From Diphasiastrum complanatum (Eukaryota; Streptophyta; Lycopodiopsida; Lycopodiales; Lycopodiaceae), in assembly GCA_029204225.1 (NCBI GenBank), contig CM055100.1:21513784-21577783 (forward strand): a DNA stretch of 64,000 nucleotides, written 5' to 3'. This document shows positions 17,123 through 40,886 of this stretch, piece after piece; position 1 is the first letter of the stretch, and every line of letters starts with the position of its first letter. A program made the position numbers and the translations under genes. The notes beneath the pieces are model-generated. The model searched no databases. It was not told where the DNA came from and was given only the letters and a program-made list of their open reading frames with translations.

Positions 17123-17548
17123 GCCGATGGCAAATTGCTATCTGTTAAAGGAGTTGGAGTGGTTCCAGTGAAGTTAGTCAGCGGGAAGATAAAATGGATA
17201 AGCAATGTGCAATATGTACCTAGCTTGGCTAACAATCTACTATTTGTTGGGACGATGGTTGATCAACAACTCAAGGTTGAGTTTGACAGTGACAAATGTC
17301 TTGTCAAAGACATCAATAATCACTACAAAGTGATTGCTATAGGAGCTAGAGTCAATGAGAATCGAGTCTACAAATTGAATGTGAGATCTTTTGCTCAAGC
17401 TATGGTAAGCACGGTTGATGGTCGAAGTGATTTTTGGCATCAACAATTCGGTCATATTAGTGCCCAAAGTTTACAGATTCTCAAAAGAGGTAATCTAGTT
17501 ATAGGATTGCCTGATATTTATTTTGAAGGAAAAATTTGTGAAGGTTGT
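17123..17548 (+). pseudogene. L1 GAG-pre-integrase region, truncated
   Basis: The frame reads ISNVQYVPSLANNLLFVG and then FWHQQFGHISAQSLQILKRG to KICEGCC, the His2-Cys2 zinc domain that precedes the copia integrase. The sequence stops there because element N1 is inserted. The integrase core never resumes on the other side. Confidence 0.85.
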
Positions 17549-18241
17549 TGTGAAAAAGTGGATCTTGAATGGATCCAAACTCCCAAAATATTTGGCTAAG
17601 ATCTTTGCACAACAAGCTACAAAAGCTAGAAATGGCAAAGTATCCTAATGCTACCTTTGATATACATGAACTTGACAAAGCATCCTAATGCTACCTTTGA
17701 TACACATGAACTTGACAAAGCATTCAAGAGACAAAAGAAACTAATAAAAGGTACTGATAGCAACCAAAAACAATAGCATACCAGCCCTACAACAGTAGCC
17801 TACCACTTTTGGAAACCTCTTAAGATCATACACATATGCTTGAAGACAATACACAAAGCAATGCTCTCAATGGAGAAAAAAACTGTGACAATGATCTATT
17901 GATCTATCTCAACAATACAATAAGTTTATCCAACATGTTCTCCACAAATCTCAGCCTAATATAGGTGAAAGAGATGACTCTCTCTCCTCTCTCTAGAACT
18001 TAGGACCCAAATTTAGGGCACCAGTAACCTAAAATAGCCAATTTTGGCGTATATGTCCAAATAACATGATTCTGGTGTCATTTCGAAGGTCTTGAAGTTT
18101 GAAAATTCTTCAACATGAAATCTATACTAAAATAAAAGTATCTAGGCTTATTTCACACGTGTGAAATGTTAGGTCCAAAACTATGTACAAAAATTGCCAA
18201 TTTAGGCCTCAAACTAGCTAGGAATGTTGACAATTTTCACA
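17549..18241 (-). repeat. 3' LTR of N1
   Basis: 693 bp, TG at 17549 and CA at 18241 on the plus strand. It contains a tandem duplication of CATCCTAATGCTACC-type sequence near 17640-17720 absent from the other LTR. Confidence 0.9.
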
Positions 18242-18254
18242 CTCCCTCTTCAAC

Positions 18255-20719
18255 TTAATTTGCTAGCTTTACAACTCTACTTTGCTCCAAGCTAAGAATG
18301 ATCTCCATCATGATAATAGATCTCTTCTCAAGTGTTCTAATATGTACAATATGAATTACAACATAATTGATATAGATAATAGTGTCCATATAGGATGCTT
18401 CACTATTTTTTATATCAATTTTACATAGAATGGTGAACATGATACATGTAAAAGAACATAGAATCATAATGAAAGGATTCCTCCATGTATCCACCTTTGA
18501 ATTCTCTGTAAAACAGCAACAAACAAGTTGTAAGTGAAAGTAACCAACAAGTGTTTGCATGCCTCCTCCACATTCCACTATGCCCATAGTGAATGAACCT
18601 CCATCACTCCAATCCATGAAAGCCCTTGAGTGAATGAATGCCGAAATGATGTGTTCTCTGTTCCATTTGAATGACCAAAACTTGATCTTGAAATACTTGA
18701 AGTATCTCCACAAGATTTGCATACAACCCTTGATCCTACATTGTCAACAATTTGCCAATTTGCCAACACTAGGATGCTAGATCTTGAACTTTTTTCAAAA
18801 GTAAACATATTGACCACTTCAATATCTTTCAAGATTTGAATGAATGTCCTTGACCATAAAAACCAGCAATGATAACTAATCCATCTCCAAGATCCAAAGG
18901 ATGCAAAACTATGGAACTAGTTTTATTGAATTTTGACAATTCCAACACATTGACATGACAATGTTCATACATGAGATTAAACAAGTCAGGTAGAGTAAAA
19001 GGACACTTCCTTGTTGCTTCAAGAACCTTACTTGAACCTTCAAAAACCTGTAAAAACAGATCCAGAATGCTTTGCCCATGTAGCTCCACTTTGATGCTTT
19101 TGACTAGCTTCCAATTGCTACTTGCCTCTTGGTGTTGATGAAGCAATTCAAGATCAACATCTTGATCTTCCAGTAAAACATCAAGAAATTTGCATTTATA
19201 AACATCTTCAGATCTGAACCTCTGAAGATACTCCCTCTCAAACACATAATTAACATTCCACAAGGTATCATCATTGCTTGATTTCAACCTTTCACTATAG
19301 TTAGTGAAAACAATGTCACCATCATAAACCAAAAGATGGATTTCTACAATTCTATCCAACATGAAGTAGAGTAGATGAAGTTGAGTATCAAACCTAATCA
19401 AACCAGCCCATTTGAGTTCAAACCAAACCTCAATGATCTCACCAATGAAATCTTCCTTGCCTTGAAGAAAATGCCACTTGAGTTGCTCCATGTAGTCTTC
19501 TTCATCCAATCTTTTGACATCTTGATCATGCATGAAAACTCCACCACAATCATAGCAACCTTTGAGTTGATGAAGAGATATAAGATTCATGCCTTGGATC
19601 TTCCCAAGAGTCACTCTTCCTTTGCCCTTTCCTTCACAAGACTCCCTCTTAATGATCACATCACAAAAGTTAGCAATCTTCCTCTTGATAGTTGCATCAT
19701 AACAAATGGAAGGATCTCAAAAATTAGAAGCCATGAAAAGAATACATAGTTCCTTCAACATAGGAATGATTGAAGTACTTTTTCTTGTCAAACCTGGACT
19801 TCTAATCAATGATATAGGTAATGATAATGAACCCTCACTATCATTCACAAAAGCATCATTCAAAGTACATCCTACTTTAACACTTCACATTCATCTCTCC
19901 CTTTTGACTTGAGATCTTCCTCACCAAGTCTCACGATAGAACCTTTTGATCTACTTTCTTTATGAATACATGTGACACCACTTGTTTCACAAATGACTTT
20001 CTTGGCCTCATCACATAAAGATACAAAAGAAACTTTTTCTTCAATCATGCTCAAAGCACCATCTCTTTCCAAATGAGTAAATAAGTCATTAGCAACAACC
20101 ATTTCCAAAGAAGAGTTTTCATCACCTCCATTGATGAAGTTAGCTCTCTTCTTACCTTTTTCATTTTTGCACTTGCCATGTAGTTCCATTGAAGATCCAC
20201 CAAGACATGGAAATCTATGAGTAGAAGAGTTAAAATATGATATTAATTTAGCACCACATGACTCCATTTGACTAGTAGGTAGCACTAGTCCATCTTCAAG
20301 ATCCAATGGATCCAAAACATTGATCATAGATTCACCAAAAGCTGCCAAGTTAGCACAACAATAACTATCTCCAAGAAGCTCATTAGATCTCAACCTAGAT
20401 CTAGCATAAGGAGGCCCTTTAGACTTTGAATAAGATCTACCAATCTTATTGATGCTAGGAATTGACTTTTGAAAGTTGAGAGAACCACCAGCATCCATTT
20501 CATTCCTCTTGTTAGACATAACAAATGCATCAAGCTTGTAAAGTCTACCTTGTCTATTGCCCCTAGCAATCAAGACATCTCCCTTAGTAATGAAGCAAAC
20601 ATCCCAACAAACTTTGTCTTGTACCCTTTCTTTAACATGTGACCAACACTTAGCAAAGTCCTTGAAAGTGAAGGAATGTAAAGAACACCATCAAGCCTTG
20701 CATTCCTATTGGTAGAAAT
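18255..20719 (-). pseudogene. N1 non-pol coding region homologous to the N2 C-terminal region
   Basis: Minus-strand frames at 19872-20573, 18829-19659 and 18255-18832 line up in order with the N2 protein after its protease. Shared segments include ARGNRQGRLYKLDAFVM, FERE.LQRFRSEDV, and near the end KIDIKNSEAS and RTLEKRSI..MEIIL. Stops and frameshifts interrupt it (for example FMASNF-stop near 19727). No integrase DDE, RT YVDD or RNase H motif is present. A module with DLEDGLV...MESCGAKL occurs here and again in the C-terminal part of N2. Confidence 0.8.
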
Positions 20720-21796
20720 TCAAATAGGAATTGAGCCAATACCTTTGATCATACACTCACCACCATTTGGCATGTGAGGCACTTTTTTGGTTCCAACATA
20801 AGAGATCAAAGAAGTAAATAACTCCTTGTGACTAGTCATGTGTGAACTAGATCCACTATCTATCCACCATGAATCCTTGTCACTTCTACTTGACATTAGA
20901 CTTGAAGAACACATCATGAGAGAATCACAAGAATCTAGATCCTCATTAGAAGTACAAAAGTTGTTTTGCTTGCTACCTTCATTACTTTGCTTCTTATGAC
21001 ATTCATTTGCAAAATGACCTTTTATCCCACAATAAAAGCACTTGAACTTTGACTTATCTTTCTTTCTAAAAGAAGTAGAAGAGGAGGAGGAACAATGATC
21101 ATCATGATCCAAGTTACCACCTTTGGACCATTTCTGTTTGCCTTTACCTTTGCCTTTGACTTTTCCTTTTGTGAAAAAAGCCTCTTCACCTCCACCTTGC
21201 AAGGATGCACCATCAAGCTTTGATTGCAACCTATGTTCTTTAGCCAATAAGATTTCTTGAAAGTCAACCACACTTGGCAAGACTCTTTGAATGGCAAAAC
21301 TTTGCACAAGGTTAGAATGTTCATCTAGCAAACCATTCAACATAACTTGGACTATTTCACCATCTTTTATGCTTTCATCAATGCATGCTATATCATCACT
21401 TAAGGACTTAACCCTCAAGACCAATGCATGAGCACTTTCTCCCTCTCTTTGTCTACTAGAAAATATTTGCCTCCTTATGGTCAATACCCTAGATGTGGAC
21501 TTTGATTCAAAGAGCTTCTTCAAGGCATTCCATGCCTCACTTGCACTTTGACTTTTACCAACTTCCTTGAGAAGTTCATTGGTAACATTCATTTTAATAA
21601 TATGACGAGCCCTTTTAGCCTTCTTATCAAACCTTTGTTGCTCTTGAACTGTGGGTGGTCTCTCTTTAGCTCCTGCAACTATGTCCATGAGTTCATTCAA
21701 CTCAAGTAAGGACTCCATCCTCACTTTCCAAGTAGAGTAGTTTGATGAACTCAACCTATCATTAGTTTCTAACAAGATTCCACCATTGGAAGCCAT
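20720..21796 (-). CDS. N1 Gag-protease
   Basis: A 358-codon open frame from ATG 21796. Gag opens NDRLSSSNYSTWKVRMESLL (UBN2/DUF4219 type) and includes LKKLFESKSTSRVLTIRRQI. A lysine-rich KGKGKGKQKWSKGG linker precedes one CCHC knuckle, CFYCGIKGHFANEC. The retropepsin motif reads WWIDSGSSSHMTSHKELF, so the catalytic DSG is kept. The frame stops at 20720 just before the pre-integrase-like part; beyond it the homology to N2 continues in other frames. The product would form particles and mature them, using enzymes supplied by a full element. Confidence 0.85.
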   Translation of the reverse strand: MASNGGILLETNDRLSSSNYSTWKVRMESLLELNELMDIVAGAKERPPTVQEQQRFDKKAKRARHIIKMNVTNELLKEVGKSQSASEAWNALKKLFESKSTSRVLTIRRQIFSSRQREGESAHALVLRVKSLSDDIACIDESIKDGEIVQVMLNGLLDEHSNLVQSFAIQRVLPSVVDFQEILLAKEHRLQSKLDGASLQGGGEEAFFTKGKVKGKGKGKQKWSKGGNLDHDDHCSSSSSTSFRKKDKSKFKCFYCGIKGHFANECHKKQSNEGSKQNNFCTSNEDLDSCDSLMMCSSSLMSSRSDKDSWWIDSGSSSHMTSHKELFTSLISYVGTKKVPHMPNGGECMIKGIGSIPI

Positions 21797-22930
21797 GAAT
21801 ATAATGATTCTTCAACTTTTAGGCTCTATCCTAATGCAGCCTAGCACTCACTTTCCTCTCAACAAATGATGGATAAGGAGATCTCAGAAGATCTAGGACT
21901 CTAAAACACTTCTATCTTGAACTTGGCTGGTTTCCAAGCATAGAAAGGAAGATTGAAACACATGCAATACTTTGAACACACTAAGAATGGACTACAAACT
22001 CAAACCAACCTGAACACACTCTTGCTTAAGCTCTAAAACGTTCCAGCCAGTGACCAAATAAAGTTATGATGTGAAGAGTTACTTGCATTCTTAGAAAATA
22101 CACAAGACTAGGCTGCCAAGAATACCTATAATTGAACAAACTTGATCAACATATGATCAACACACTAAAATATTGATTCAACCTGTAAAACCACATGTAA
22201 ATCACACTTGTAAAAGTTTATAAACTCCAGCAAATGATAAATACAAGCTTTAGAGGTGAATGAAAGAGCACACTCAGTGAATCACAAGACTAGCTTCACT
22301 AGCTTGTCAAATCTTGGTGTTTAGATGTAGATCTAATATCACTTCACATGAGAATGTTCCTCAACCTGTTAAGAACCTGAAAACACATTTGCATAATGGT
22401 TAAAACCTTCCAGCAAATGCTCCAATCAAATTACATAAGGAGAGTTACTTACATGCTCAACAAAGTACACTAAAATTTATTCAAAAGATTGTTGACAATC
22501 TGTTCACCCAAAAGGGGATCTTTCATCCAAGTGGGAGCTTTGCTCAGCCTTTTGGAGAAATACAAAATCACTCAAAGAGTATTTGTCATCCACTTAAGGA
22601 GAAGGTTCATCCACTTAAGGAGAGTGTTCATCCACAAAGGAGAGTGTTCATCCACAGAAGTGAAGATTGTCAACAATACATTGTTAGTTTTGAATATGCA
22701 CAAGCCTCACAATCAACAAATGATTAGGTGTTATGATCTGATCCAAATAGCTTCTTCTCAGCCTCTGATCTTCAATAGACCTAAAATATGCTTTTGATCC
22801 ACAAGTTCAACTCACAAAACAAAGGTTAGTAAGATTTGATCAACAGTGCAATGCATAATCATGCTAGAACTTGATCAAACATCCAAATATCACCATAAAT
22901 GGAAACCTTAATAAAAATAACAGCCAACTA

Positions 22931-22942
22931 GCTCTGATACCA
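22931..22942 (-). other. primer binding site of N1
   Basis: The minus strand reads TGGTATCAGAGC immediately beside the right LTR, a perfect plant copia initiator tRNA-Met site. It fixes the orientation of N1. Confidence 0.9.
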
Positions 22943-23510
22943 TGTGAAAAAAGTGGATCTTGAATGGATCCAAACTCCCAAAATACTTGGCTAAGATCTT
23001 TGCACAACAAGCTACAAAAGCTAGAAATGGCAAAGCATCCTAATGCTACTTTTGATACACATGAAGTTGACAAAGCATTCAAGAGACAAAAGAAACTAAT
23101 AAAAGGTATTGATGGAAGCCAAAAACAACAGCATACCAGCCCTACAACAGCAGCCTACCACTTTTGTAAACCTCTTAAGATCATACACAAAAGCTTGAAG
23201 ACAATACACAAAGTAATGCTCTCAATGGAGGAAGAAACTATGACAATGATCTATTGATCTCTCTCAACAATACAATAAGTTTCTCCAACCTATTCTCCAT
23301 GAATTTCAGCCTAATATCGGTGAGAGATATGACTCTCTCTCCTCTCTCTAGAACTTAGGACCCAAATTTAAGACACCAGTAGCCTAAAATAGCCAATTCT
23401 GGCCTATATGTCCAAATAACATGATTTTGGTGTCATTTCAAAGGTCTTGAAGTTTGAGACTTCTTCAACATGAAACCTATACTAAAATAAAAGTATCTAG
23501 GCTTATTTCA
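22943..23510 (-). repeat. 5' LTR of N1, truncated
   Basis: 568 bp match the left LTR up to GGCTTATTTCA, then the sequence switches to L1 RT coding DNA. The last 86 bp are gone. Confidence 0.9.
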
Positions 23511-25318: not shown

Positions 25319-25966
25319 TGTTGGAAATAGTGAACTCAGCACCCAAGTCACCGAATAGTCGGACTCCCTACCAAAAATTAGTTTAAGTGCCGAATAAGAT
25401 TATCGGGCATGGCTGAACTATTGGTACCATAGCTCATCAGACAAGCCGAACCATTGGGCTCCTGACGTTAGGCATGAAGCTATCAAGTTGTCACGCCCAA
25501 CAACTAAAAAACACCGTTACTAGAGGGGCAGTTAATTAAAGATTTAGCAGAAAACTCTCTTATAATGATTGGTTAATCCTTCTTGTAATTTCACAATGTG
25601 GGACATAATATAGGATAGAATCCAACAACAACATAGAGAGATATACAGATATTTGTAGATCCGCAAAATAGCAGAGAATACAATTTTAAGAGGAGCGTAC
25701 GAGCGAGACACTGCTGACTCACTTTGCAAACAAAATACAAATGCAAATATGCTCTATGATCTTCCAACTTTGATTGTTGAGCTACGTGTCTGATTGACTG
25801 ATTAATATATTGTTCTGTGATTTGTAGTCAAGTATCTAGGTCCTACAAATTCAATGTACAATGTAGCGCATTTTTGCCAAGTATAGACTCACACGCAACT
25901 AAGCATCAAACACTTTGGCTAGCAAAGCAAATACAAGCAAAACAGAAACAGAAGAAAAATTCTACA
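25319..25966 (+). repeat. 5' LTR of L5
   Basis: 648 bp, TG to CA, followed by TGGTATCTCTAG (25967-25978), a weak match to the tRNA-Met primer site. Same family as 39753-40431 and the pieces at 40432-40886, 50765-51226, 51227-51910, 51929-52400 and 59513-59738. Confidence 0.85.
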
Positions 25967-25988
25967 TGGTATCTCTAGATAACACAAT

Positions 25989-27030
25989 ATGGCTACTACG
26001 ATTCAAATGCAATCAATCTTGATGGCGCAAACTATCAAGCCTGGAAGTTCAAAATCAAAACACTCTTGAAGGATGAAGGCAGATGGTCAATGACCAAACT
26101 CATAGAAGAACAGCCTCCACAAGGAGACCCAAGGAGAGCTGAATGGATCAGAAAGGATGAGCGCGCAATGGCAATCATCGTTTCATCCATAAATGAAGAC
26201 ATACTCATGCAAATTGAAGATTGTGAGAATAGCCATGAAGCATGGGAAAGACTAAAACAGAAGTACGAAGTGAGGACTGTAGCTTTGGTGATGCACCTAC
26301 ACAATCAGTTGAAAGGTATGTGATGGGATGACAACTAGTTGGATTAGCATGTCAAGAAGATCAGAATGATCTTCGCTCAACTTGCTGCATTTGGACAGGA
26401 GCACCAGGTCCCAACACCACAGTAGCTGATGTACTTCATAAAAACTCTACCTACGTCCTATCGGCCATCGAGAATGCTCATTCTGAACTTACTAGAAATG
26501 ACCTTTGAGCGATGAGAGACTGATGAGAGACAAAGGACAAAGAAGCAGTGACCAGAAGAAGACCCTTTTCACAAGGGAAAGAAGAAATACAAAAACAAGC
26601 TCAAATTCCACAAGGCTCAATCAAATCCATCGACAAGAGGAAACAACAACAACAAATTGAAGATACTTCTACCTGTGATCATTGTAACAAACCGAGACAC
26701 TCAGCCGACAGATGTTGGTTCAACCCGACAATTCCTTGCATGCACTGCAAGAAGAAAGGTCATTCAGCATATGAATGCCGATACAACCCAAAGCAAAAGA
26801 ACAATGGAGAAAAAGCAAATGTTGCAGAGTCATCAAAGGATGCAGATAAGAGTGACAATGCATTCACAATCATTGATGAAGCATCAACAAGCTACACTAA
26901 GCACGACTATGACATAGTCATCGACTCAGGAGCTAGGTTGCATATAACTTGCAACAAAAAACATCTTGATCAATTTCAAGACACTCGACAATGCAAGAGC
27001 GGTGATACTTGGAGATGGGAGCAAACATGA
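25989..27030 (+). pseudogene. L5 Gag, zinc knuckles and protease
   Basis: ATG 25989 is followed after a one-base shift by YQAWKFKIKTLLKDEGRWSM and HEAWERLKQKYEV (Gag). A damaged stretch at 26320-26550 follows. The frame at 26548-27030 carries two knuckles, CDHCNKPRHSADRCW and CMHCKKKGHSAYECR, and the protease motif IVIDSGARLHITCNKK with intact DSG. Several stops and shifts make it inactive. Confidence 0.8.
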
Positions 27031-28664
27031 TAAGGAAGGCATCAGAACTTTACATCTACGTACATTGTCCGGATATGCATAACTGTAAGGAGCACTTTAC
27101 GTACCAACGCTCAAAAGAAACTTGCTCTATGTATTGAGAATCACCGATCTTGGTGCAAGAGTCCTGTCTGAAGGGAACATATGCCGAATAATCGAGCAAA
27201 AATCAAGCAAGCTACTGACTCTCAAATGAAGACAGGGAAATCTTTACCAAGCAAAGATCATCAGCAGACATGATAGCATATTAAATGCATCAGAAAATGA
27301 AGATCATCTCTAGCATAGATGAATGTATCATCCATGTGTGAGAAGTTTGTATGACATGAGCATAAAAGAGGTCGTCATAGGTCTGAAAATAACAAGACCT
27401 GACACCAGCTTCTGTGAAGCCTGTTAGAGAGGCAAACAACATCACAGTCCAGTTGTGCACGAAGGGAGAAGAGCCAAGGAGATTCTTGACCGCATTCACT
27501 CAGATGTGTGTGGACAGATGAAAGCCGACTCACTCTCAGGATCATAGTACTTCGTCACCTTCATTGATGATTGTAGCTGGATGACAACAATATACTACAT
27601 AAAGAGAAAATTAAAAGTGTTTGATGCCTTCAAGAAGTTCGTGGCATTCGCAAAGAGACACCTCCAAGAAAGTGCAGACTATCAGGTTTGACAATGGAGG
27701 CGAATACAAAAGTAAGGAATTCTCAAACTTCTGCCAAGAACGAGGAATCAAGCATCAATTCACACCTGCTTAAAATGCATTCACAATCATTGATGACGCA
27801 TCAACAAGCTACACTGAGAACGCCTATGACATAGTCATCGACTCAGGAGCTACGTTGCATATAACCTACAACAGAAATATCTTGATCAATTTCAAGACAC
27901 TTGACAATGCAAGAGTGGTGATACTAGGAGATGGGAGCAAACATGATAAGGAAGGCATCAGAACTTTACATGTACGTACATTGTTCGGATATGCATAACT
28001 GCAAGGAGTACTTTACGTACCAAAGCTCAAAAGAGACTTGCTCTATGTATTGAGAATCACCGATCTTGGTGCAGGAGTCATGTTTGAAGGGAACATATGC
28101 CGAATAATCGAGCAAAAATCAAGCAAGCTGCTGACTGTCAGATGAAGATAGAGAAATCTTTACCAAGCAAAGATCATTAGCAGACATGATAGCATAAATG
28201 CATTAGAAAATGAAGGTCATCTCTGGCATAGATGAATGTATCATCTAAGTGTGAGAAGTTTGTATGACATGAGCAGAAAAGAGATTGTCATAGGTCTGAA
28301 AATAACAAGACCTGACACCGGCTTATGTGAAGCCTATCGGAAAGGCAGACAACATCAGAGTCCACTTGTGCATGAAGGAAGAAGAGCCAAAGATATTCTT
28401 GAGCTCATTCACTCACTCTCAAGATCGCAGTACTTCATCACCTTCATTGATGATTGTAGCTGGATGACAACAATATACTACATAAAGAAAAAATTAAAAG
28501 TGTTTGATGCCTTCAAGAAGTTCGTGGCATTCATAGAGAGACACACCTCCAAGAAAGTGCAGACTATCAGGTCTGACAATGGAGGTGAATACAAAAGTAA
28601 GGAGTTCTCAAACTTCTGCCAAGAACAAGGAATCAAGCATCAATTCACACCTGCTTATAAACCA
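26859..28664 (+). repeat. tandem duplication of L5 protease-integrase segment
   Basis: About 910 bp from TGCATTCACAATCATTGATG (26859) recur at 27776 onward with the same gene content (protease DSGA, pre-integrase, integrase start). The copies differ at scattered sites and small deletions. Confidence 0.8.
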
Positions 28665-29260
28665 TAGTATTTGGTGAAGCAAAAAGAAGAAACAAGATTC
28701 TTGTCGAAGGAGCCATATGCATGGCTCAGTTGCCAAGTCAATTCTGGACCGAAGCAATTGCTGAACTATTCACCTGCAGAACAGATCCACAACAACAACC
28801 TTGGAAGACAAAACGACATATGAAATTTGGACAAGTTGAAAGCCCGATCTATCGTATGTACGTGTGTTCGGATGTGCAACATACATGCACATACCAAAAG
28901 AAAAAAAGAGTAAGCTCGACGAAAAGTCTAAGCTAACAATCATGGTTGGATATTCGAACAGATCACAAATGTACCGACTCTACGATCCAACCTCAAAGAA
29001 GGTGGTGTTGAGAAGAGATGTGACGTTGGATGAATCGATCTTTTTTGGAACTAAGAAAGGTAAGGGTCATGAAATCTTCACATTGTTGCCATTTCAAAAG
29101 GAGATCGAGGACATACATGGACACAGAATATGTCGAGCCATAGACTCTAGAGCAGAAAGATGAAGACCAACCAGATGAAGAAGAAAATGAAGACAAAACA
29201 AACCAACAGCGAAAGTCGGACCAAGAAGGTCAACAAGAATGAAAAGACAGCCTAAATGAC
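27031..29260 (+). pseudogene. L5 integrase remnants (two partial copies)
   Basis: Copy 1 is broken by stops. Copy 2 (28236-28667) reads YHLSVRSLYDMSRKEIVIGL, FITFIDDCSWMTTIYYIKKK and RSDNGGEYKSKEF, so two acidic DDE-region motifs remain, but the first catalytic segment is cut: ELIHS runs into LSRSQYF with about ten residues missing relative to copy 1. The C-terminal piece at 28864-29163 has GYSNRSQMYRLYDPTSKKVV. Nothing of RT follows. Confidence 0.8.
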
Positions 29261-30564: not shown

Positions 30565-31348
30565 ATGGATTCCCAAGGGAAAGCCAGTCCTCATGGACAA
30601 CCAATTACCATCTGTGGAAATTAAAGATGAAGACTGTACTAATGGCAAAAGAATTGTACGACGTTGTTACAGGTGCAAAAGGGAAACCCGAAGTGGACGA
30701 CGCGACAATCGCCAGATGGAAGCTGAAGGATGGAAAAGCTTTCGTGCTGATCATCCTCAACATTACGAATACACAGATCGGCCATGTATCCGAGGCTCAG
30801 ACATCGAAAAAAGTCTGGGATATCTTGAGCATGCTATTCAAAGTGCGAAATATAGCTTCCAAGCTACATCTCAGGAAGAAATTCTACTCCCTCAATATGA
30901 CGAATGGTGATTCTTTGCAGAATCACATTAATCAATTCAAATGGCCGCTGTCGGATTTGTCATAGGCGATCAAGACGCAGTGATGCAACTGCTTACAAGC
31001 TTGCCAAGTTCTTACGACAGCTAGGTGATGACCATCATGACTCATCCAAAGTTGACTCTTTCGAGAGTCATCACTATGTTGTTGCAGGAAGACACGTGAA
31101 GGAACGAAGCCTCAAGTTCCTCAGCTGATTCTCACGCCTTGTACACCAACAAGGGCACGACAAAGCAGAAGAAGAAGAAAGGCCCGAAGCTATCAAAACC
31201 AGACCAAAAACCAGCTCAACACAAGGAACAATCGCATTCGCAGACAAAGAAGAAGCTGTTCTGCAGACACTGCAAATGAAACAACCACAAAATTCAAGAC
31301 TCCCAAATATTTCAAGCGAAGAACAACAGCAAAGGGTAGTCGAATCAA
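30565..31348 (+). pseudogene. L6 Gag and zinc-knuckle remnant
   Basis: ATG 30565 (MDSQGKAS) shifts frame to KMKTVLMAKELYDVVTGAKG, LSMLFKVRNIASKLHLRKKF and NGDSLQNHINQF, a UBN2-type Gag closely related to that of L7. Further frames near 31250-31340 show a damaged knuckle, LFCRHCK-stop-NNHKIQD. Stops and shifts make it inactive. Confidence 0.75.
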
Positions 31349-33458
31349 GTGGCAAATGCAGCTGCAGAAGCTCCACAGCCCATTCAAGAAGCGGATCATG
31401 ATGCCTTCATGACCAACCATCAAGGAGCATCTGGCGACAGTTCATGGTTCCTGGATTCTGGAGCCACTCAGCACATGACTAGTTTGATTGGCTGTTTCGA
31501 GTCCTATACACCTTACAGTACCCAAAAATTCGTTCACCTTGGCGACAGTAGCACACAAGCTATTAAAGGTGAAGGAACTGTAAGATTATGCTTTGCAAAT
31601 GTTCAATCTAAGATACTCTCCAAAGTTCTGTATGTACCTAAGTTATCCACGAATCTGCTCTCTATAAGCAAAATCACAGATCTAGGACACAGAGTAGAAT
31701 TCGAATGTGATCAATGTAAAGTAGATGATAGGACAGGCAAGATCCTAGCACTCGGAAAGAGGCATGGATACTTGTATAAATTAAGTCATGGCTTTTCTGC
31801 CTCTAGTCAGGCTCTCAGTACTTCAATTCAATCAAATAAAGGTTTACTTTGGCATTATAGACTTGGTCATTTAAATTATGCTGTTGTACAACGAATGTGT
31901 AGACAATCTATTGTTCTTGGTCTCGACAATCCTCTCAAAACAGTCGAGCTACCTGTCTGTCAAGACTGTCTAGTTGGAAAAAGACTAGGAAGCCATTTAA
32001 GTCAAGCCATCAGCATGTTGCTAGAGGATTGCTAGATGTTGTACATTCAGATATTTGTGGCCCGATGAAAAATCCTTCGCTAAAGGAAGCCAAGTATTTT
32101 ATAACCTTTATTGATGAATTCTCGAGAAGAACGATGGTGTACTTCATAAAGAAGAAATCAGAAGCCTTCAACTGCTTCAGAATCTTCAAGGAGCGTGCAG
32201 AAAGGGAGACTGGAAGGACGCTCAAGGCCCTAAGGTCAGATAACGGTGGAGAATATATCTCTGTCGAGTTCAAGGAGTACTGCCAAAGCCAAGGCATTGA
32301 GCAGCAATTCATCACTCCTTTTAGTCCTCAGTCTAATGGCTTAGATGAGAGGAAGAACCGAACTTTGGTCAAATCTGCTAAGTGTATGCTAGCACATGCA
32401 TCGTTGCCCAAGAGGTTCTGGGCTGAAGCTGTCTCCACTGCAGCTTACATCTAGAACAGATGTTCGACCAAAGCCCTCTCAGACAAGACACCCCACAAGG
32501 TGTGGATAGGCTCCAAGCCTTCTTTGGAGAACCTAAGAGTGTTTGGGTGCATTGCCTACGCGCAGATCCCAAAGGACACAAGGAAGAAATTGGACCTCCA
32601 AGGACTAAAGACCATCCTGATTGGATATACTTTGTCTGATAACACCTACAAGTTGTACGATCCAGATACCCAGCAAATCTTGTATAACTGGGATACAATC
32701 TTTGTCGGAAATCAGTTCGTCGACCTCAAAGGCAAGGATAATGCTCAAGAAAAACCTTCATCACCTGCCACTGACACGACAATCCGAGCTTCTGGCTCAA
32801 GAACGTCTATCGTCGACCCACTTCGAGATAGCGAAGATGTTGCTGCTACCCAGCAACATATCCCAGGAGCGGTTCATCAGTCAAATCCTCCCAGAAGATC
32901 AAGCCGAGTGCGCACACAACCCACAAGGTATACTCCTGAGTTTGCCTATCTTTTAATGCGACGACAGTCGAAGAGACACTTAGCCAACAAGACTTTGATC
33001 TCTGGAGAGAAGCTATGGACAAAGAGTATTCCTCTCTGATCAAGAATCAGACATGGTCATTAGTTGAAGCTCCTATTGGTTGCAATATCATTGATTGCAA
33101 ATGGATCTTTAAGATCAAATATAACGCCAACGGAGCGATTGATCGAAGGAAAGCTAGAATGGTAGCACGAGGATTCACCCAAATCCCAAATGTCGACTAC
33201 AGTGATACTTTTAGTCCAGTCATCAAACATTCGTCGATTCGAATGCTCTTGTCTTATGCTGCTGCTGTCGACCTCGAAGTACATCAACTCGATGTACAAA
33301 TAGCCTATTTGAATGGAGTTATTCAAGAAGATATTTACATGATCCAGCCCGAAGGATACGTTCTGGAAGGCATGAAGTATCATGTCTGTAAACTCCATAA
33401 AGCACTGTACAGCTTGAAACAGTCTGCCAGAGCTTGGTTTCAGAGGATCAACACATTC
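31349..33458 (+). pseudogene. L6 protease, integrase and N-terminal RT
   Basis: Protease: SSWFLDSGATQHMTSL. Pre-integrase: LLWHYRLGHLNYAVVQRM to CQDCLVGKR. Integrase core (32029-32454) shows VVHSDICGPM, FITFIDEFSRRTM and LRSDNGGEYISVEF, then a stop at 32454. The C-terminal part (LIGYTLSDNTYKLYDPDTQQ) and RT start (33015: KEYSSLIKNQTWSLVEAP, RMVARGFTQIPNVDYSDTFS, LKQSARAWFQRINT) follow in shifting frames. The RT frame is interrupted at 33459 by N2 and resumes at 38956 in the same frame once N2 and one target copy are removed. Confidence 0.85.
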
Positions 33459-34112
33459 TGTGAAGGATTTCAGATCATTCAAGATCCAATCCAAGTCCCA
33501 AATCTTTGGTTACAATAAGGAGCAAACCAACAATCCTGCCAATGTAGAAAAATCAGCATCTACATACAAAATGAGATGCAAACTCTAAGAGATATTGATC
33601 AAACATGAACCAAAACATAAAATATGTTTGTTGTTCGTACAATTACAATACCCTACTGTATTTCACACGTGTGGAACCGAAAATAGCAATAAATGATCAT
33701 TCTACACACAAGATTGCAAGATAACACCAAGATAGTGCACCAATGAGTAGTAGAACCCAAAGAGAACCATGTATAATGATGAAATGAGAGAGAGAAGAGA
33801 GAAGATGTGTCTCTCCAATAGTTACATCCTTTTATAGAGTTTCCAAACCCTATTTGGCCACTTGGCTTTCCCTCCAAAATGTAAACCCTACTATTTTTGG
33901 GTCTAGATTCAATGTACCCAAAGTTCAAATTTGAATCTCTCTCAAACTCGACTACCAACTTTCCCACACTTTCCAAAAGTGTTTATTGAATGTAGTTTAA
34001 ACTAATATAACTTCAAAAAGTTTATCTCTAAGTCTAAAATGAGTTTTGGCCTCTTATTAACAATTTACCAAAATGTGACTAAACTAGACTAAACTAGTTG
34101 AAATCTCTCACA
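33459..34112 (-). repeat. 3' LTR of N2
   Basis: 654 bp, nearly identical to 38297-38950. The ORF stop codon lies inside its first bases. Confidence 0.95.
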
Positions 34113-37100
34113 CTCCCTCTTCAACTAGTTTTGGCATAGTTTTGACAATAGAACTTTGATCCAACTTTAGAATGATCTCCATCCTAAGTATAGATCTTCT
34201 TTCTAAGGTTCTAAAGTATCTTTCATAATTGATATAGAGAATAGTGTCCAAATTGGATGCTTCACTATTTCTTACATCAATTTTACACATCAAGATATAA
34301 CTAGAACATGAAGAACCAAATAGAATGTAAATGAAATGATTCCTCCATGTTTCAAACTTTGAACTCTCTGGAAAATTACAGCAACCAAACAATAAATGTG
34401 AGTGATGACCATTTGCTTGCTTGTCTCCTCCAACTTTGTCCTTTCTTGATATGTCTTCACCATAAAACTCCATGAATGTGCCTCCATCTCCATCTTGCCA
34501 CAAGACACCATCAAACCTTGGAAATCCATGAGTAGGTGAGTATATACATGATGCAAATCTAGCACCACATGACTCCATAAACCAAGTAATTTGCACTAGT
34601 CCATCTTCAAGATCTACTTGACACAAGAAAATGACCATGAATTCACCAAAAATTGACAATCCCCAAGTATTGGCACCAAGTAGCTCAACACTTGAGAACT
34701 TAGCCATGGATGAGTGACATAATGAACCTCCAATAACTTCATTTCCATCAGCAAAACCAGCCAAGAATGCTAGTACAACTCCAACAATAAGATATTGCAA
34801 GACAATGTAGCTAGTTTGTCCATATCTTGACAATTTGCACACATCCACATGAAATAGCTCAAACATGAGATAGAACAAGTAAAGTAAACTTGAACAACAC
34901 TTCCTTGCTGCTCCTTTGACCTTACTTGAGTCTTCAATAAGCTGCAAAAATAGATCCATAACATCTTTGCCAAATAACCTTCCTTTGATACTCTTGACTA
35001 GCTCCAAATTGCCACCTTTCCTTTTGTGTTGTTGAAGCCCTTTAAGACCAACCTCTTGATCTTCCTCTTGATCATCAAAGTCATTAAACAAACTTTTTTT
35101 TCCAGATCCATTACTTGATTTTCTAGTATGAAAAACATGAGAACCAATATCCACTTGCATAGCTTCATCTACACAAGAAAATTCTTCAAAACATGTGAAT
35201 AAAGCAAAGTGAGTCGCTTCCATGTGCTTACCTTTCTCTTGATCATCAAAGATATCAAAGATATGAATATCTTCAGACCTGAACCTCTGGAAATACTCCC
35301 TCTCAAACATATGATCTAGATTCAACAAGATCTCATCAATGCTTGATCTCGATCTCCCACAAAGGTTAGTGAAAACAATGTCACCAATGTCACCATCATA
35401 AATCAAAAGATAGATTCCAAATTTTCCATCCAACATGAAGTAGAGTAGGTGAAGATGAGTATCAAACCTAATAAATCCAGCCCTCTTGAGTCCATAACAA
35501 ACCTCAATAAGCTCACCAATGAGATCTCCCTTGCCTTGAAGAAATTGCCTCTCGATTTGTTCCATGTAGTCTTCTCCAACCAACTTTTTGCCATCTTGAT
35601 CATGAGTGATCAATTCATAATCATAGAATCCTTTGAGTTGATGAAGAGATGTGAGATCCATGCCTTGGATCTTCCCAAGAACCAATCTTTCATTGCTCTT
35701 TCCTTCATAAGACTCCCTCTTAATGATTGCATCATAAGAAGTAGAAACCTCAAAAACATTAGAAGCCATGAAAAAAATGATTAGTACATTCAACATAAGA
35801 ATGATTGAAGTACTCTCTTTTTTCAAACAAGAACTTCTACTCAATGTTTTAGGTAATGACTCACATGATAATGATTCCTCCTCACTATCATTCAAAATGA
35901 CATCATTCAAAGTACATCCTACTTTGAACTCTTCACATACTTCTCTTCTTCTTGACTTGTGACTATCTCCCTCACCAAGTCTCTTGATAGAACCATTTGA
36001 TCTACTCTCTTTATGAAGACATGTGACTCCACTTGCTGGAAAAATGACTTTCTTGGACTCATAACAAAAGAATGTAGAAGAACCACCTCCTTCATGCATG
36101 CACCTAGCAACATCCTTTTCCATATGATCAAAGAAATCATTAGCAACAATCTTTTCCAAGGAAGAACCTTCACCTCCATTGATGAAGTTAGCTCTTTCCT
36201 TATCTTTTGCATGCTTGCACTTGCCATGAAGAACCATTGAAACACCATCATTATCCTCAAGACTAGCCAAGTTAGCACAAAGATGAACATCTCCAAGAAG
36301 CATATTAGATCTTGACCTAGATCTAGCATAAGGAAGCTTGTTAGACTTTGCATAAGATCCAACAATCTTATTGATGCTAAAAGATAACTTTGGAAAGTTG
36401 AGACCAATCTCCTTTTCCATTCCATCCTTTTTGTTAGCCATAACAAAAGCATCAAGCTTTAAAAGTCTACCTTGTCTATTGCCCCTAGCAACCAAGATTT
36501 CTTCCTTTGTAATGAAACAAGCATCACCACCAAACTTTACCATGTATCCTTTCTTTATCATTTGACCAACACTTAGCAAATTCTTTGAAAGTGAAGGAAT
36601 GTAAAGAACACCATCAAGTCTTGCTTTCCTATTAGTAGAGAGACAAATAGGAATTGAACCAATACCTTCAATCACACACTCACCACCATTGGCCATGTGA
36701 ATTGCTTTCTTGGCTCCATCATAAGTGACCAAAGAAGTAAAGAACTCCTTGTGACTAGTCATGTGTGAGCTAGCTCCACTATCAATCCACCATGAATCTT
36801 TGTCACCTTCACTTGATATTGGACTTGATGAACACATCAAAAGAGAATCACCACCACCTAGACCCTCATCATTAGTAGTAAAGTTGATTTGCTTGCTACC
36901 TTCATCTCTTTGCTTCTTCAAACATTCATTTGCAAAATGCCCTTTGATTCCACAATAAAAGCATTTCAACTTAGACTTATCTTTCTTTTTTCCAAAAGAA
37001 GAAGTCTCACCTTGATCTTGCCCTTTAGACCACTTGCCTTTGCCTTTGCCCTTGAACTTGCCTTTGATGAACATAGCATCCTCTTCATAATGAGATGTCG

Positions 37101-37695
37101 ATGTAGATCCACCTCCTCTTGATTGAAGCCTATACTCCTCATTCACCAAGATCTCTTGCAAATCCACAATACTTGGCAAAGTCTTTTGAATAGCAAAACT
37201 TTGAACAAGATTAGCATGATCATCCAACAAGCCATTAAGTATAACTTGAACAAGCTCTACCTCCTTAATGCTTTCATCAATACATGCTAACTCATCATTG
37301 AATGCCTTAACCCTCAAAACAAAAGCATGAGTACTCTCTTCCCTCTTTTGCAAACTTTGAAAGATTTGCCTCCTAAGAGTAAGCACTCTTGATGTAGACT
37401 TGGATTCATAAAGCTTTTTCAAAATTTCCCAAGCCTCCAAAGATGATGTGCACTTACCAACTTCCTTGAGAAGTTCATTGGTAACATTCATCTTAATCAT
37501 GTGTAGAGCTTTCTTTGCTCTCTTGTCATACCTCACTTGATCTTGAGGTGCTTGAGGTCTCTCCTCCACACCTGCAACAATCTCCATCAACTCATTCATC
37601 TCCAATAAGGACTCCATCCTCACCTTCCAAGTAGAATAGTTGATTGAGGTAAGCCTATCATTGCTCTCCAACATAAATCCACCACTTGTAGCCAT
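34108..37695 (-). CDS. N2 Gag-protease fused to about 770 residues of unknown protein
   Basis: ATG 37695. Residues 1-230: UBN2-type Gag (NDRLTSINYSTWKVRMESLL; KGKFKGKGKGKWSKG linker). About 243-258: CCHC CFYCGIKGHFANEC. About 300-312: protease WWIDSGASSHMT with intact DSG. About 365-420: VLYIPSLSKNLLSVGQMIKK and ARGNRQGRLLKLDAFVM, normally the spacer before integrase. After this no integrase, RT or RNase H follows. Instead come about 770 unrecognised residues with two hydrophobic, possibly membrane-spanning stretches (about 623-645, SIILMLNVLIIFFMASNVF; about 962-982, IVLQYLIVGVVLAFLAGFA), an Asp/Glu-rich DDQEEDQEV part, and a DLEDGLV...MESCGAR module that recurs in N1. The end KLVEEGV is encoded by the purine tract, with the stop in the LTR. 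The same tail in N1 shows it is family-specific. Envelope-like or accessory roles are speculation. Confidence 0.9.
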   Translation of the reverse strand: MATSGGFMLESNDRLTSINYSTWKVRMESLLEMNELMEIVAGVEERPQAPQDQVRYDKRAKKALHMIKMNVTNELLKEVGKCTSSLEAWEILKKLYESKSTSRVLTLRRQIFQSLQKREESTHAFVLRVKAFNDELACIDESIKEVELVQVILNGLLDDHANLVQSFAIQKTLPSIVDLQEILVNEEYRLQSRGGGSTSTSHYEEDAMFIKGKFKGKGKGKWSKGQDQGETSSFGKKKDKSKLKCFYCGIKGHFANECLKKQRDEGSKQINFTTNDEGLGGGDSLLMCSSSPISSEGDKDSWWIDSGASSHMTSHKEFFTSLVTYDGAKKAIHMANGGECVIEGIGSIPICLSTNRKARLDGVLYIPSLSKNLLSVGQMIKKGYMVKFGGDACFITKEEILVARGNRQGRLLKLDAFVMANKKDGMEKEIGLNFPKLSFSINKIVGSYAKSNKLPYARSRSRSNMLLGDVHLCANLASLEDNDGVSMVLHGKCKHAKDKERANFINGGEGSSLEKIVANDFFDHMEKDVARCMHEGGGSSTFFCYESKKVIFPASGVTCLHKESRSNGSIKRLGEGDSHKSRRREVCEEFKVGCTLNDVILNDSEEESLSCESLPKTLSRSSCLKKESTSIILMLNVLIIFFMASNVFEVSTSYDAIIKRESYEGKSNERLVLGKIQGMDLTSLHQLKGFYDYELITHDQDGKKLVGEDYMEQIERQFLQGKGDLIGELIEVCYGLKRAGFIRFDTHLHLLYFMLDGKFGIYLLIYDGDIGDIVFTNLCGRSRSSIDEILLNLDHMFEREYFQRFRSEDIHIFDIFDDQEKGKHMEATHFALFTCFEEFSCVDEAMQVDIGSHVFHTRKSSNGSGKKSLFNDFDDQEEDQEVGLKGLQQHKRKGGNLELVKSIKGRLFGKDVMDLFLQLIEDSSKVKGAARKCCSSLLYLFYLMFELFHVDVCKLSRYGQTSYIVLQYLIVGVVLAFLAGFADGNEVIGGSLCHSSMAKFSSVELLGANTWGLSIFGEFMVIFLCQVDLEDGLVQITWFMESCGARFASCIYSPTHGFPRFDGVLWQDGDGGTFMEFYGEDISRKDKVGGDKQANGHHSHLLFGCCNFPESSKFETWRNHFIYILFGSSCSSYILMCKIDVRNSEASNLDTILYINYERYFRTLERRSILRMEIILKLDQSSIVKTMPKLVEEGV

Positions 37696-38284
37696 GTTGA
37701 AGTGACCTGATCTTCTCTTTCAACCTGTTCCAATGCACAAAGCACTCTCTTGAATGTCAAAAAATGAACTCAAGAAGAAATCACAAAGATATGGAACCTC
37801 TCAAATCTCTTCTAGCACTTCTAACTAGAAAATCAACACATAGAATAGTGAAATCTTGATCAACCTATGATCTATCCTCAATCTAATGATTCTTGCCACT
37901 TCCTAAGATTGAAACACACTCAAATAAAGTTCAGTAACCTCACAAACTAGAGATCCAATCAAAATTAGGGTTTTGACAAAATCACAAAAAATTGAATATC
38001 TCAAATTCTACATGCAATTTCTAGAAACTTGGTATATCTTCTTGTAGACTCCAATGAGACCTTCCTAATGCACCAAAAATCATCTAATTCCAGTAAGCCA
38101 AGTGTTAAATCGGAATTGATCAAGTATATAACCCTATATTGAGTTTTGACCTACAAAAGATCAATTCTACACATGCAAAAATGCTGATTTTTGAGTAGAG
38201 ATCAATCTAGCATGCTCTAGCATTGGTAACTCCTCAAACTTCTTGCTAAAGATGGCTGATCCTTTCATAACCTGAAACACAAGA

Positions 38285-38296
38285 GCTCTGATACCA
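38285..38296 (-). other. primer binding site of N2
   Basis: The minus strand reads TGGTATCAGAGC next to the right LTR, fixing the orientation. Confidence 0.95.
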
Positions 38297-38950
38297 TGTG
38301 AAGGATTTCAGATCATTCAAGATCCAATCCAAGTCCCAAATCTTTGGTTACAATAAGGAGCAAACCAACAATCCTGCCAATGTAGAAAAATCAGCATCTA
38401 CATACAAAATGAGATGCAAACTCTAAGAGATATTGATCAAACATGAACCAAAACATAAAATATGTTTGCTGTTCGTACAATTACAATACCCTACTGTATT
38501 TCACACGTGTGGAACCGAAAATAGCAATAAATGATCATTCTACACACAAGATTGCAAGATAACACCAAGATAGTGCACCAATGAGTAGTAGAACCCAAAG
38601 AGAACCATGTATAATGATGAAATGAGAGAGAGAAGAGAGAAGATGTGTCTCTCCAATAGTTACATCCTTTTATAGAGTTTCCAAACCCTATTTGGCCACT
38701 TGGCTTTCCCTCCAAAATGTAAACCCTACTATTTTTGGGTCTAGATTCAATGTACCCAAAGTTCAAATTTGAATCTCTCTCAAACTCGACTACCAACTTT
38801 CCCACACTTTCCAAAAGTGTTTATTGAATGTAGTTTAAACTAATATAACTTCAAAAAGTTTATCTCTAAGTCTAAAATGAGTTTTGGCCTCTTATTAACA
38901 ATTTACCAAAATGTGACTAAACTAGACTAAACTAGTTGAAATCTCTCACA
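38297..38950 (-). repeat. 5' LTR of N2
   Basis: 654 bp, TG to CA on the plus strand, followed by target duplication CATTC. Confidence 0.95.
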
Positions 38951-38955
38951 CATTC

Positions 38956-39560
38956 CTCATTGAACAAGGATTTAAATCAAGCATTGCTGATTGCAACGTT
39001 TATTCAAAGTCAGTGCAACAATCCTTAATTATCATCACCTTGTATGTTGATGATACGTTGCTCTTCAGCAACAATGCCAATATGGTCAAGGATTCAAAAC
39101 AGATGTTCTCAGAATTCGACATGACTGATTTGGGCGAAGCTCACTTCTGTCTTGGAATTCAAATCCACAGAGACAGAGCAAATCGACTGATTTACATCAC
39201 TCAACAAAGGCATTTTCATAATGTTCTTAACAGATACAATTTGATGAGTTGTAAATTAGCTCACTCACCAATGATCCAGGCCTGCATTTGTCAAAGGACC
39301 AATGTCCCCAGACAAAGCAGGAAGAGGAGCGGATGAGAGAATACTCGTATCGATCGATACTCGGATCTCTCATGTACGCAATGGTCTGTACAAGGCCAGA
39401 TATCTCTTTTGCTGTCAGCTCACTCAGCCAATATATGGATAATCTTGTAATTACCCATTGGAAGGCTCTTATTCAAGTCATGAGATATATTCGAGCTACC
39501 ATGGACCAGTGAATCTACTATGGAGATGTCAGCAACAACAATCTTCCATTCGAAGACCAA
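38956..39560 (+). pseudogene. L6 RT C-terminus and RNase H start
   Basis: RT resumes directly after the N2 target duplication: FLIEQGFKSSIADCNVY, then the catalytic TLYVDDTLLFSNNANM, DLGEAHFCLGIQIHRDRANR. A frameshift near 39290 precedes SYRSILGSLMYAMVCTRPDI and YIRATMDQ-stop. RNase H catalytic motifs are missing; after about 39560 the sequence no longer looks like copia and soon reaches the L5 3' LTR. Confidence 0.85.
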
Positions 39561-39752: not shown

Positions 39753-40431
39753 TGTTGAAAATGGTGAATTTGGCAACCATTCCCTATCATTCTCCAAATC
39801 ACCGAATAGTCGGATCCCCTACCAAAAAGTTTAAGTCTCCAATAAGATTATCGGGCATGGCCAAACTATCAGTACCATAGATCATCGGCAAGCCAAACCA
39901 TCGGTCTCATGGCGTCGGGCGTGAAGCTATCAAGCTGTCATGCCCTACAACTAAAAAGAAATATTACTAGACAGGTAGTTAACTAGAGATTTCGTGAAAA
40001 ACTCTCTTGCAATGATTGGTTAATGCTTCTTGTAATCTCACAACATGGGACATAACTATAGGATAGAATCCAAAACATCATAGAGAGATATATACAGATA
40101 GAGATATTTGTAGATCTGCATAGCAGAGAATAAATTGTAAGAGGAACGTCAAGCCGCCAACGAGCGAGACACTGCCGACTCACTTTGCAAACAAAATACA
40201 AATGCAAATACACTCTCTGATCTTCCAACTGGGATTGTTGAGTTACATGTCTAATTGATTGATTGATATATTGTTATGTGAACTGTAGTCGAGTATCTAG
40301 GTCCTACAAACTCAATGTACAGTGTAGTGCATTTCTGCCAAGTATAGGCACACACGTAGCTGAGAACCAAGAAAATGCTTCGGCTAGCAAAGAAAATACA
40401 AGCAAAACATAAACAAAAGAAAAATTCTACA
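39753..40431 (+). repeat. 3' LTR of L5, left arm
   Basis: 679 bp from TGTTGAAAATGG to TTCTACA. Its reverse complement is 51227-51910 in the right arm, including the preceding CACAAGGGAG. Confidence 0.85.
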
Positions 40432-40886
40432 TTCTTCTGTTTCTGTTTTGCTTGTAATTGCTTTGCTAGACTAAGCATTTGGTGCTCAGTTGCATGTGCG
40501 CCTATACTTGGTGAAAATATGCTACATTGTACATTGAGTTTGCAAGACCTAGATACTCGACTATAGATCACAGAACAATATATCAATCAATCAATCAGAC
40601 ACGTAACTCAACAATCGGAGTTGGAAGATCATAGAGTGTATTTGCATTTGTATTTTGTTTGCAGAGTGAGTTGGCAGTGTCTCGCTCGTTGGCGGACGCT
40701 CCTTTTACAATTGTATTCTCTACTATGTTGTAGATCTACAAATATCTCTATTTGTATATCTCTCTATGTTGCTTTTGGATTCTATCCTATACTTATGTCT
40801 CACGTTGTGAGATTACAAGAAGGATTAATCAATGGTTACAAGAGAGTGTTTCGCAAAATCTCTAGTTAACTGCCTCTCTAGTAACG
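40432..40886 (-). repeat. inverted partial L5 LTR, abutting the forward LTR
   Basis: Starting TTCTTCTGTTTCTG, this reads as the reverse complement of the LTR end, lacking the terminal bases, to CTAGTAACG. The two LTRs meet tail to tail and form a short-spacer palindrome at 40432. The right arm shows the mirrored arrangement at 50765-51910. Confidence 0.8.

Follow-up and report, generated by a model that had tools for sequence, protein, structure and literature searches.

A 64,000-nucleotide stretch of the Diphasiastrum complanatum genome (NCBI GenBank assembly GCA_029204225.1, contig CM055100.1, positions 21,513,784 to 21,577,783 of the forward strand; hereafter the window, in whose positions all coordinates are given) carries on its minus strand, at 33459-38950, a complete Ty1/copia element of 5,492 bp, which we call N2. 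Here, we argue that N2 is in all probability a semi-autonomous element, one that has its own Gag and protease and, continuing in the same open frame, a decayed pol. An earlier note, made from the letters alone, had described an intact 1195-codon frame in a young element, with copia Gag, knuckle and protease in its first part and a long, conserved novel fusion in place of pol; the frame, the domains and the youth of the element are all borne out below, while the supposed fusion turns out to be in part copia pol, with amino acids free of constraint at two evolutionary depths. The parts of N2, ordered by position and including those discussed later, are these:

33454..33458 and 38951..38955, no strand: target-site duplication CATTC, 5 bp, on both flanks of N2
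33459..34112, minus strand: 3′ long terminal repeat (LTR), 654 bp
34108..37695, minus strand: single open reading frame (ORF), 1195 codons, ATG to TGA
34111..35301, minus strand: residues 799-1195, with no detectable relative beyond the kin of N2 and N1, and with in-frame deletions of 171, 165, 174 and 351 bp in other copies
34113..34122, minus strand: polypurine tract GAAGAGGGAG
35302..35646, minus strand: reverse transcriptase (RT) remnant, residues 684-798, by hhalign and by comparison with L064
36229..36423, minus strand: weak integrase remnant, residues 425-489, local score 57.5, colinear
36544..36792, minus strand: Pol_BBD PF22936, residues 302-384, by Pfam, containing a DSGA motif
36922..36966, minus strand: CCHC zinc knuckle (zf-CCHC), residues 244-258, by Pfam
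37117..37617, minus strand: Gag PF14223 (Retrotran_gag_2), residues 27-193, by Pfam
38285..38296, minus strand: primer binding site (PBS) TGGTATCAGAGC, adjoining the 5′ LTR
38297..38950, minus strand: 5′ LTR, 654 bp, TGTGA...TCACA

The ORF crosses the polypurine tract and ends in a stop codon that the opening bases of the 3′ LTR provide. A copia-type Gag and protease region is present (PF14223, PF00098 and PF22936), the DSGA being presumably a protease-type motif, with weaker Pfam matches to DUF4219 at residues 15-40 and to zf-CCHC_2. Against 5.8 billion proteins this Gag-protease part returned nine matches, all carrying PF14223 and PF22936, of which the best by E-value is 28% identical. The 771 codons behind it, which we refer to as the tail, gave no Pfam family at E≤10, either whole or as two of its pieces, and no protein database match at E≤10 among 3552 candidates; the eight matches of the ORF to solved structures all concern Gag or the knuckle and none the tail. 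Such a long open frame is not due to chance, because Markov sequences of tail composition never came near it, with a mean of 52 stops per frame at order 1 and 37 at order 2, and longest open runs of 155 and 268 codons in 500 simulations each. The two hydrophobic stretches of the earlier note are present, as 19-residue windows above 1.6 that begin at residues 626-633 and 960-970.

Part of this tail is, on the evidence of profile alignment, decayed pol. For the reference profile, eight YVDD-bearing copia Pol frames of this genome were combined with eight of the nine protein matches to Gag-protease, and residues 684-798 aligned with its RT block at an hhalign score of 45.3 (P 2.3e-4, probability 44.6), against a mean of 19.1 and a maximum of 28.0 for 100 shuffled tails and 15.6 for the reversed tail. 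Within the remnant YGLKRA is kept, APRAWY is lost, the stretch following YGLKQA is gone and YDGD stands where YVDD is expected. The integrase remnant is weaker, residues 448-471 giving a colinear hhalign match to the start of the integrase core that is not significant alone (P 0.18, 0.32). The order protease, integrase, RT is therefore seen in N2 as remnants only, and with no intact integrase or RT and no Pfam match in the tail N2 does not qualify as an autonomous copia element. The statement that the tail holds no integrase or RT motif was thus mistaken at the profile level; of the checks proposed with it, profile comparison recovered the RT remnant and structure prediction, made without relatives, was uninformative (mean predicted local distance difference test score 30.9, 771/771 residues below 50).

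A complete copia Gag-Pol of 1322 amino acids from the same genome (L064), with Gag, pre-integrase, integrase, SH3 and RT domains, provides a direct comparison. N2 is 52% identical to it over Gag-protease (216/413) and 27% identical over the RT remnant. The score of tail segment 684-815 against it was equalled by none of 500 shuffles and that of 425-560 by four, while segments 490-683, 816-1003 and 1004-1195 were equalled by 44, 126 and 475 of 500.

The second line of evidence is selection: the Gag-protease of N2 is under purifying selection, and the amino acids of its tail are not, at two depths. The shallower depth is that of a 34-copy tree of the family, which omits L034 (a duplicate of L032), L061, L062 and the tail-only L049-L058. 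On its internal branches Gag-protease shows 17 nonsynonymous (N) and 21 synonymous (S) changes, a ratio of their rates (dN/dS) of 0.33 (p=0.001), and the tail N86 S30, a ratio of 1.11 (p=0.68), so that the test for purifying selection on the C-terminal part called for in the earlier note came out negative; the two regions differ (Fisher p=0.0013) and still do when a clustered patch at codons 518-560 is removed (p=0.0024). Over that patch N2-like copies are set apart from the other young ones by 11 tail differences in 43 codons, and by no difference in Gag, a pattern pointing to recombination. Terminal branches gave 0.60 for Gag-protease and 1.21 for the tail, and a 31-copy run gave 0.33 and 1.28 on internal and 0.65 and 1.05 on terminal branches, with tail segments ranging from 0.60 (561-683, p=0.39) to 3.04 (1004-1195), none of them significant. 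Between 20 young and 10 old copies, three differences are fixed in Gag-protease (2.4/kb) and 44 in the tail (19/kb), the latter comprising 34 N, 9 S and one step through a stop, apparently a two-base change at codon 526, and spread over codon positions as 16/13/15.

The deeper comparison is with N1, an older relative that also lies in the window:

17553..23327, minus strand: N1 with its LTR-like repeats, 17553-17972 and 22948-23327, 92-96% alike
18226..21797, minus strand: N1, relative of the whole N2 ORF, older and broken, in blastn pieces 73-78% identical to N2

Its coding region is now split into several ORFs, its PBS at 22931-22942 is the same as that of N2, and by blastn its Gag is 77.5% and its tail pieces 73-78% identical to N2, while the first of the alignments below puts tail identity at 72-83%. 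Because N1 already reads YDGD, the RT must have died before the two lineages split. A first alignment gave dN/dS of 0.40 for Gag-protease (bootstrap 0.30-0.50) and 1.59 for the tail (1.27-2.06), and a second 0.40 and 1.51, with 1.17 and 1.10 in the wrong tail frames; differences fall on the three codon positions as 130/134/109 in the tail and 68/53/129 in Gag-protease. The tail shows no constraint at the level of codons, and its excess over 1 may reflect diversification or mutation bias. With an intact Gag-protease ORF, no RT or integrase and purifying selection on what is intact, N2 has the marks of a semi-autonomous element. A match of the tail to known pol, or its neutral evolution across copies, had been named beforehand as what would speak against a novel fusion, and both are largely found, since part of the tail aligns to pol and the tail shows no amino-acid constraint; the puzzle, already sensed in the note, is that the frame has stayed open.

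The tail has also been rearranged. A module of about 152 bp (N1 20197-20348, N2 34508-34659, 76% identical) lies in different places, at residues 1013-1062 in N2 and in N1 between parts matching N2 residues 476 and 485, from which it follows that modules have moved. Of the repeated modules described in the earlier note this relocation is what stands, as N2 protein compared with itself gave no repeat match and its DNA holds only short exact repeats, one of 16 bp and four of 12 bp. The upper LTR-like repeat of N1 seems shorter than the lower, and N1 itself lies within or next to the RT region of a further copia element. Another open frame, 178 codons long (35919-36455, minus strand), overlaps the start of the N2 tail and is also present in L039 and L040, and comparison with N1 does not clearly point to selection on it. 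The possibility of a gene overlapping the tail in a different frame was considered and found no support over the tail's whole length, given the ratios of frames +1 and +2 cited above; segment 425-476, with 26 N to 2 S in frame 0 and 12 N to 10 S in frame +2, has too few changes to judge.

N2 belongs to a family with many independent young copies. Queried with the tail, the best 58 of 22,307 candidates comprised 20 at 99-100% amino-acid identity and 38 at 91-94%; queried with Gag-protease, the best 99 of 164,511 comprised 54 at 100% and 45 at 96-98%. The frame is open to at least 1061 codons in 52 of the 54 identical Gag-protease matches and exceeds 1204 codons in 0 of the 99. A further genome search for N2 relatives gave, as the best 150 of 5401 candidates, sequences that are all at least 91% identical. 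A 36-mer of PBS and leader occurs at 2003 genome sites at up to three mismatches (control 0), a count that covers the 36-mer and not the presence of a tail. Of copies L009-L038, 30 in all, L032 and L034 are the only pair with a common flank. Two Gag-selected copies, L061 and L062, were considered as tail swaps and rejected as broken or chimeric; in L061 (1446-2758, minus strand) a diverged Gag, 67% identical in DNA to that of N2, is joined to an N2-like 3′ end and LTR, and among the relatives of that Gag (best 150 of 88,847 candidates) are many 1322-codon frames, including L064. The Gag of L064 is related to that of N2, and L064 was itself rejected as the direct partner of N2, its LTR ends, and with them the LTR start, being different.

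In structure N2 has the marks of Ty1/copia, namely LTRs, a 5-bp target duplication, PBS and polypurine tract, and its PBS is one that we take to be of the initiator-tRNA type. Its LTRs differ at one of 654 sites; at a substitution rate of 1.3e-8 per site, taken as per year from a passage of PMC9744471, it was inserted roughly 60,000 years ago, an estimate good to the order of magnitude only. N2 interrupts a different copia element, one of plus-strand orientation, within its RT region. That element (30593-33458 and 38956-39336, plus strand) is broken into several ORFs, parts of which resemble Gag, integrase and RT.

What, then, might keep the tail open? The explanation that survives best, at a shade under even chances, is selection on the frame alone, stops and frameshifts being harmful in that they reduce Gag output or leave the RNA open to nonsense-mediated decay. 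The tail would, at about even odds, be kept stop-free, whatever its amino acids, to let ribosomes travel as far as the LTR; if translation ended behind the protease, over 2 kb of RNA would go untranslated, and the genomic RNA could then be subject to nonsense-mediated decay. The full proposal, that some 770 codons, made up of dead polymerase and of modules that have been rearranged, are preserved purely as an open frame that lets genomic RNA escape such decay, we hold more tentatively still. Consistent with frame-only selection, the amino acids are neutral yet the frame is open at both depths, the frame ends only within the LTR, and segment 1004-1195 is open although its composition is not coding-like, such composition being clear in segments 425-560 and 684-815 and missing in 561-683 and 1004-1195.

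Indels and stops bear on the same question. Among N2 copies every recurrent tail indel, each seen at least twice, is in frame (4/4: three deletions, of 171, 165 and 174 bp, and one insertion of 3 bp), and single-copy deletions of 351, 81 and 3 bp are likewise multiples of three; one young tail carries a private 1-nt deletion. Ten of the tails compared had been chosen for differing open-frame lengths. The recurrent events are not fully independent, because the 171- and 165-bp deletions overlap and the former lies at a direct repeat; the 171-bp segment is absent from N1 as well, and may instead have been inserted in the longer N2 copies. Relative to N2, the net tail indels of N1 are +126, +3, -3, -1, -12, +36, +3, -9, -171, -32, +12 and -3, ten of twelve being multiples of three (hand-counted from alignment coordinates, grouped within 12 codons, with three differences between aligned pieces). 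The aligned N1 tail holds one stop, six codons from its end, where about seven are expected on the N1 lineage, half of the 13.9 that 345 random substitutions produce over both lineages; N2-lineage stops are not countable because N2 was chosen for being open. N1 stop counts depend on the alignment, the first placing tail stops at 648 and 1190 and the second only at 1190, with two or three in Gag-protease. Internal branches of the N2 family show no stop gains against 3.9 expected. Tail stops in L029, L030, L033 and L037 (4/10 of L029-L038, L037 being also the only one with an out-of-frame tail indel) prove nothing on selection, as these ten were picked by tail match, and the terminal-branch figure of nine tail stop gains against 17.9 expected has the same bias of choice and is not used as evidence.

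Several observations weigh against our account of N2, whether against decayed pol or against a frame maintained for its own sake. Some 65 and 115 tail residues match pol and about 590/771 do not, and the origin of segments 490-683, 816-1003 and 1004-1195 is unassigned because shuffles often reach their scores. No autonomous partner with the LTR ends and PBS of N2 was found among the loci that were read. A GAG-to-TAG change at codon 627 is common to the old copies L030 and L033, which are not nearest neighbours; no stop common to three old copies appears in the stop lists, two apparent sites not being real stops. The same 11-nt Gag deletion at codon 90 is found in L032, L034 and L037, and although L032 and L034 are one duplicated locus the flank of L037 differs, which suggests amplification in trans of a copy whose Gag was already broken. 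Each of the five old copies selected by Gag has a damaged tail (11-nt and 1-nt deletions, a 2-nt insertion and two chimeras), and the frame of N1 changes three times (near codon 391, near codon 591, and between 981 and 1088), which may be decay after insertion. As N2 was picked for openness, only the N1 side and the variants within the N2 family count for frame-only selection. The tail as a whole has a coding-like codon-position bias (D 0.0287, shuffle maximum 0.0068), and segment 561-683 has the internal ratio of 0.60 given above. Changes common to at least three old copies (N12 S10 in Gag-protease, N21 S11 in the tail, the latter a dN/dS of about 0.6 by simple arithmetic) hint at mild constraint in both regions, and terminal branches are not purely neutral, because Gag-protease stands at 0.60-0.65 there. 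Lastly, dS between N1 and N2 is 0.17 in the tail, well under the 0.43-0.48 of Gag-protease, which suggests either tail exchange or recombination (a younger ancestry) or some constraint that acts independently of codons.

The neutral amino acids, the youth of N2 copies, the shared stop at codon 627 and the damage in old copies also fit a passive relic, in which pol is dead, the frame is unselected and stops have simply not yet accumulated. We consider this unlikely. The RT had already died when the two lineages, whose tails are now 72-83% identical, split, yet the N1 tail has one stop (two by the other alignment) where about seven are expected, and most of its net indels keep the frame; the identity to L064, at 52% for Gag-protease and only 27% for the RT remnant, also speaks against it. 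It is the N1 comparison that leads us to rate frame-only selection higher and the passive relic lower. More improbable again is the reading of the tail as mostly filler, or a sequence captured from the host, attached to Gag-protease together with a fragment of pol; it would account for the large part without a pol match and for the module placed differently in N1 and N2, but the tail has no protein match among the candidates searched, and its integrase and RT remnants are colinear. Least probable is a new functional C-terminal domain, a novel fusion possibly fast-evolving or diversifying, which could claim 771 open codons in many copies, the codon-position bias, mostly in-frame indels, the bootstrap interval above 1 for the N1/N2 tail and a published Gag with a domain of unknown function (DUF) in RLG_Quinta (passages of PMC11302176), against which stand amino acids unconstrained at either depth, wrong-frame ratios of 1.1-1.2 and near-even changes over codon positions that make the excess possibly mutational, young copies lacking 57 to 142 tail codons, and an RT remnant whose active site is lost.

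As a semi-autonomous element, N2 would make its own, still selected Gag and protease, and reverse transcriptase and integrase would come in trans from another element, because the remnants are colinear but without catalytic capacity. It is not a LARD, a type with a long internal region without coding capacity, given its intact ORF and constrained Gag-protease. In most likely supplying Gag and protease and borrowing RT and integrase, N2 would resemble the semi-autonomous wheat Gag-Pro elements, RLG_Quinta and the pol-less Athila families. The closest published case is RLG_Quinta, a wheat Gypsy element with Gag and DUF which, in the passages of PMC11302176, is centromeric with a known partner, RLG_Cereba, whereas N2 is copia-type with a kept protease region, a decayed pol and no partner found; those passages give no function for its DUF1 and suggest possible acquisition. 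According to passages of PMC9744471, the wheat elements RLG_Sabrina_SA and RLG_WHAM resemble N2 in having a Gag-Pro ORF without RT and integrase and very many copies, and are proposed Gag suppliers, but they are Gypsy elements and no long in-frame tail is mentioned there; wheat RLC_Angela non-autonomous elements are, like N2, copia with a degenerated coding region, and are mobilised by autonomous relatives, but numerous frameshifts and stops mark that region in them, whereas the Gag-protease of N2 is intact and its tail free of stops. The pol-less Athila families of Arabidopsis share with N2 Gag ORFs under purifying selection and links by recombination, and differ in having Gag and Env ORFs, the passages of PMC2410132 mentioning no in-frame decayed pol. 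TR-GAG elements, as described in passages of PMC8704663, are similarly non-autonomous with one ORF that starts with Gag, and transposition is reported for them in Arabidopsis ddm1; their ORF is Gag only, whereas that of N2 goes on into the protease region and the tail. An open tail that avoids RNA decay was not mentioned in what an open-access literature search returned in part, which does not show that nothing is in print.

Elsewhere in the window, other copia elements at 15983-17422 (plus strand), 26-28 kb and 45-46.7 kb (plus strand) are 28-33% identical to the N2 Gag-protease by tblastn. A head-to-tail pair of about 900 bp each (26857-27780 and 27774-28665) is 90-94% identical, and direct repeats at 25442-25967 and 39889-40432, about 14.4 kb apart and 81-90% identical, with an inverted copy at 40432-40886 next to the second of them, are perhaps LTRs.

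What had been a candidate novel Gag fusion becomes, on our account, a plain example of semi-autonomy in a copia element, which would supply Gag and borrow its polymerase. A coding frame that outlives its coding content would be testable through N1 and the many young copies, and bears on how RNA surveillance may shape retrotransposon genomes; other elements described as Gag with a DUF may likewise hide a decayed pol.

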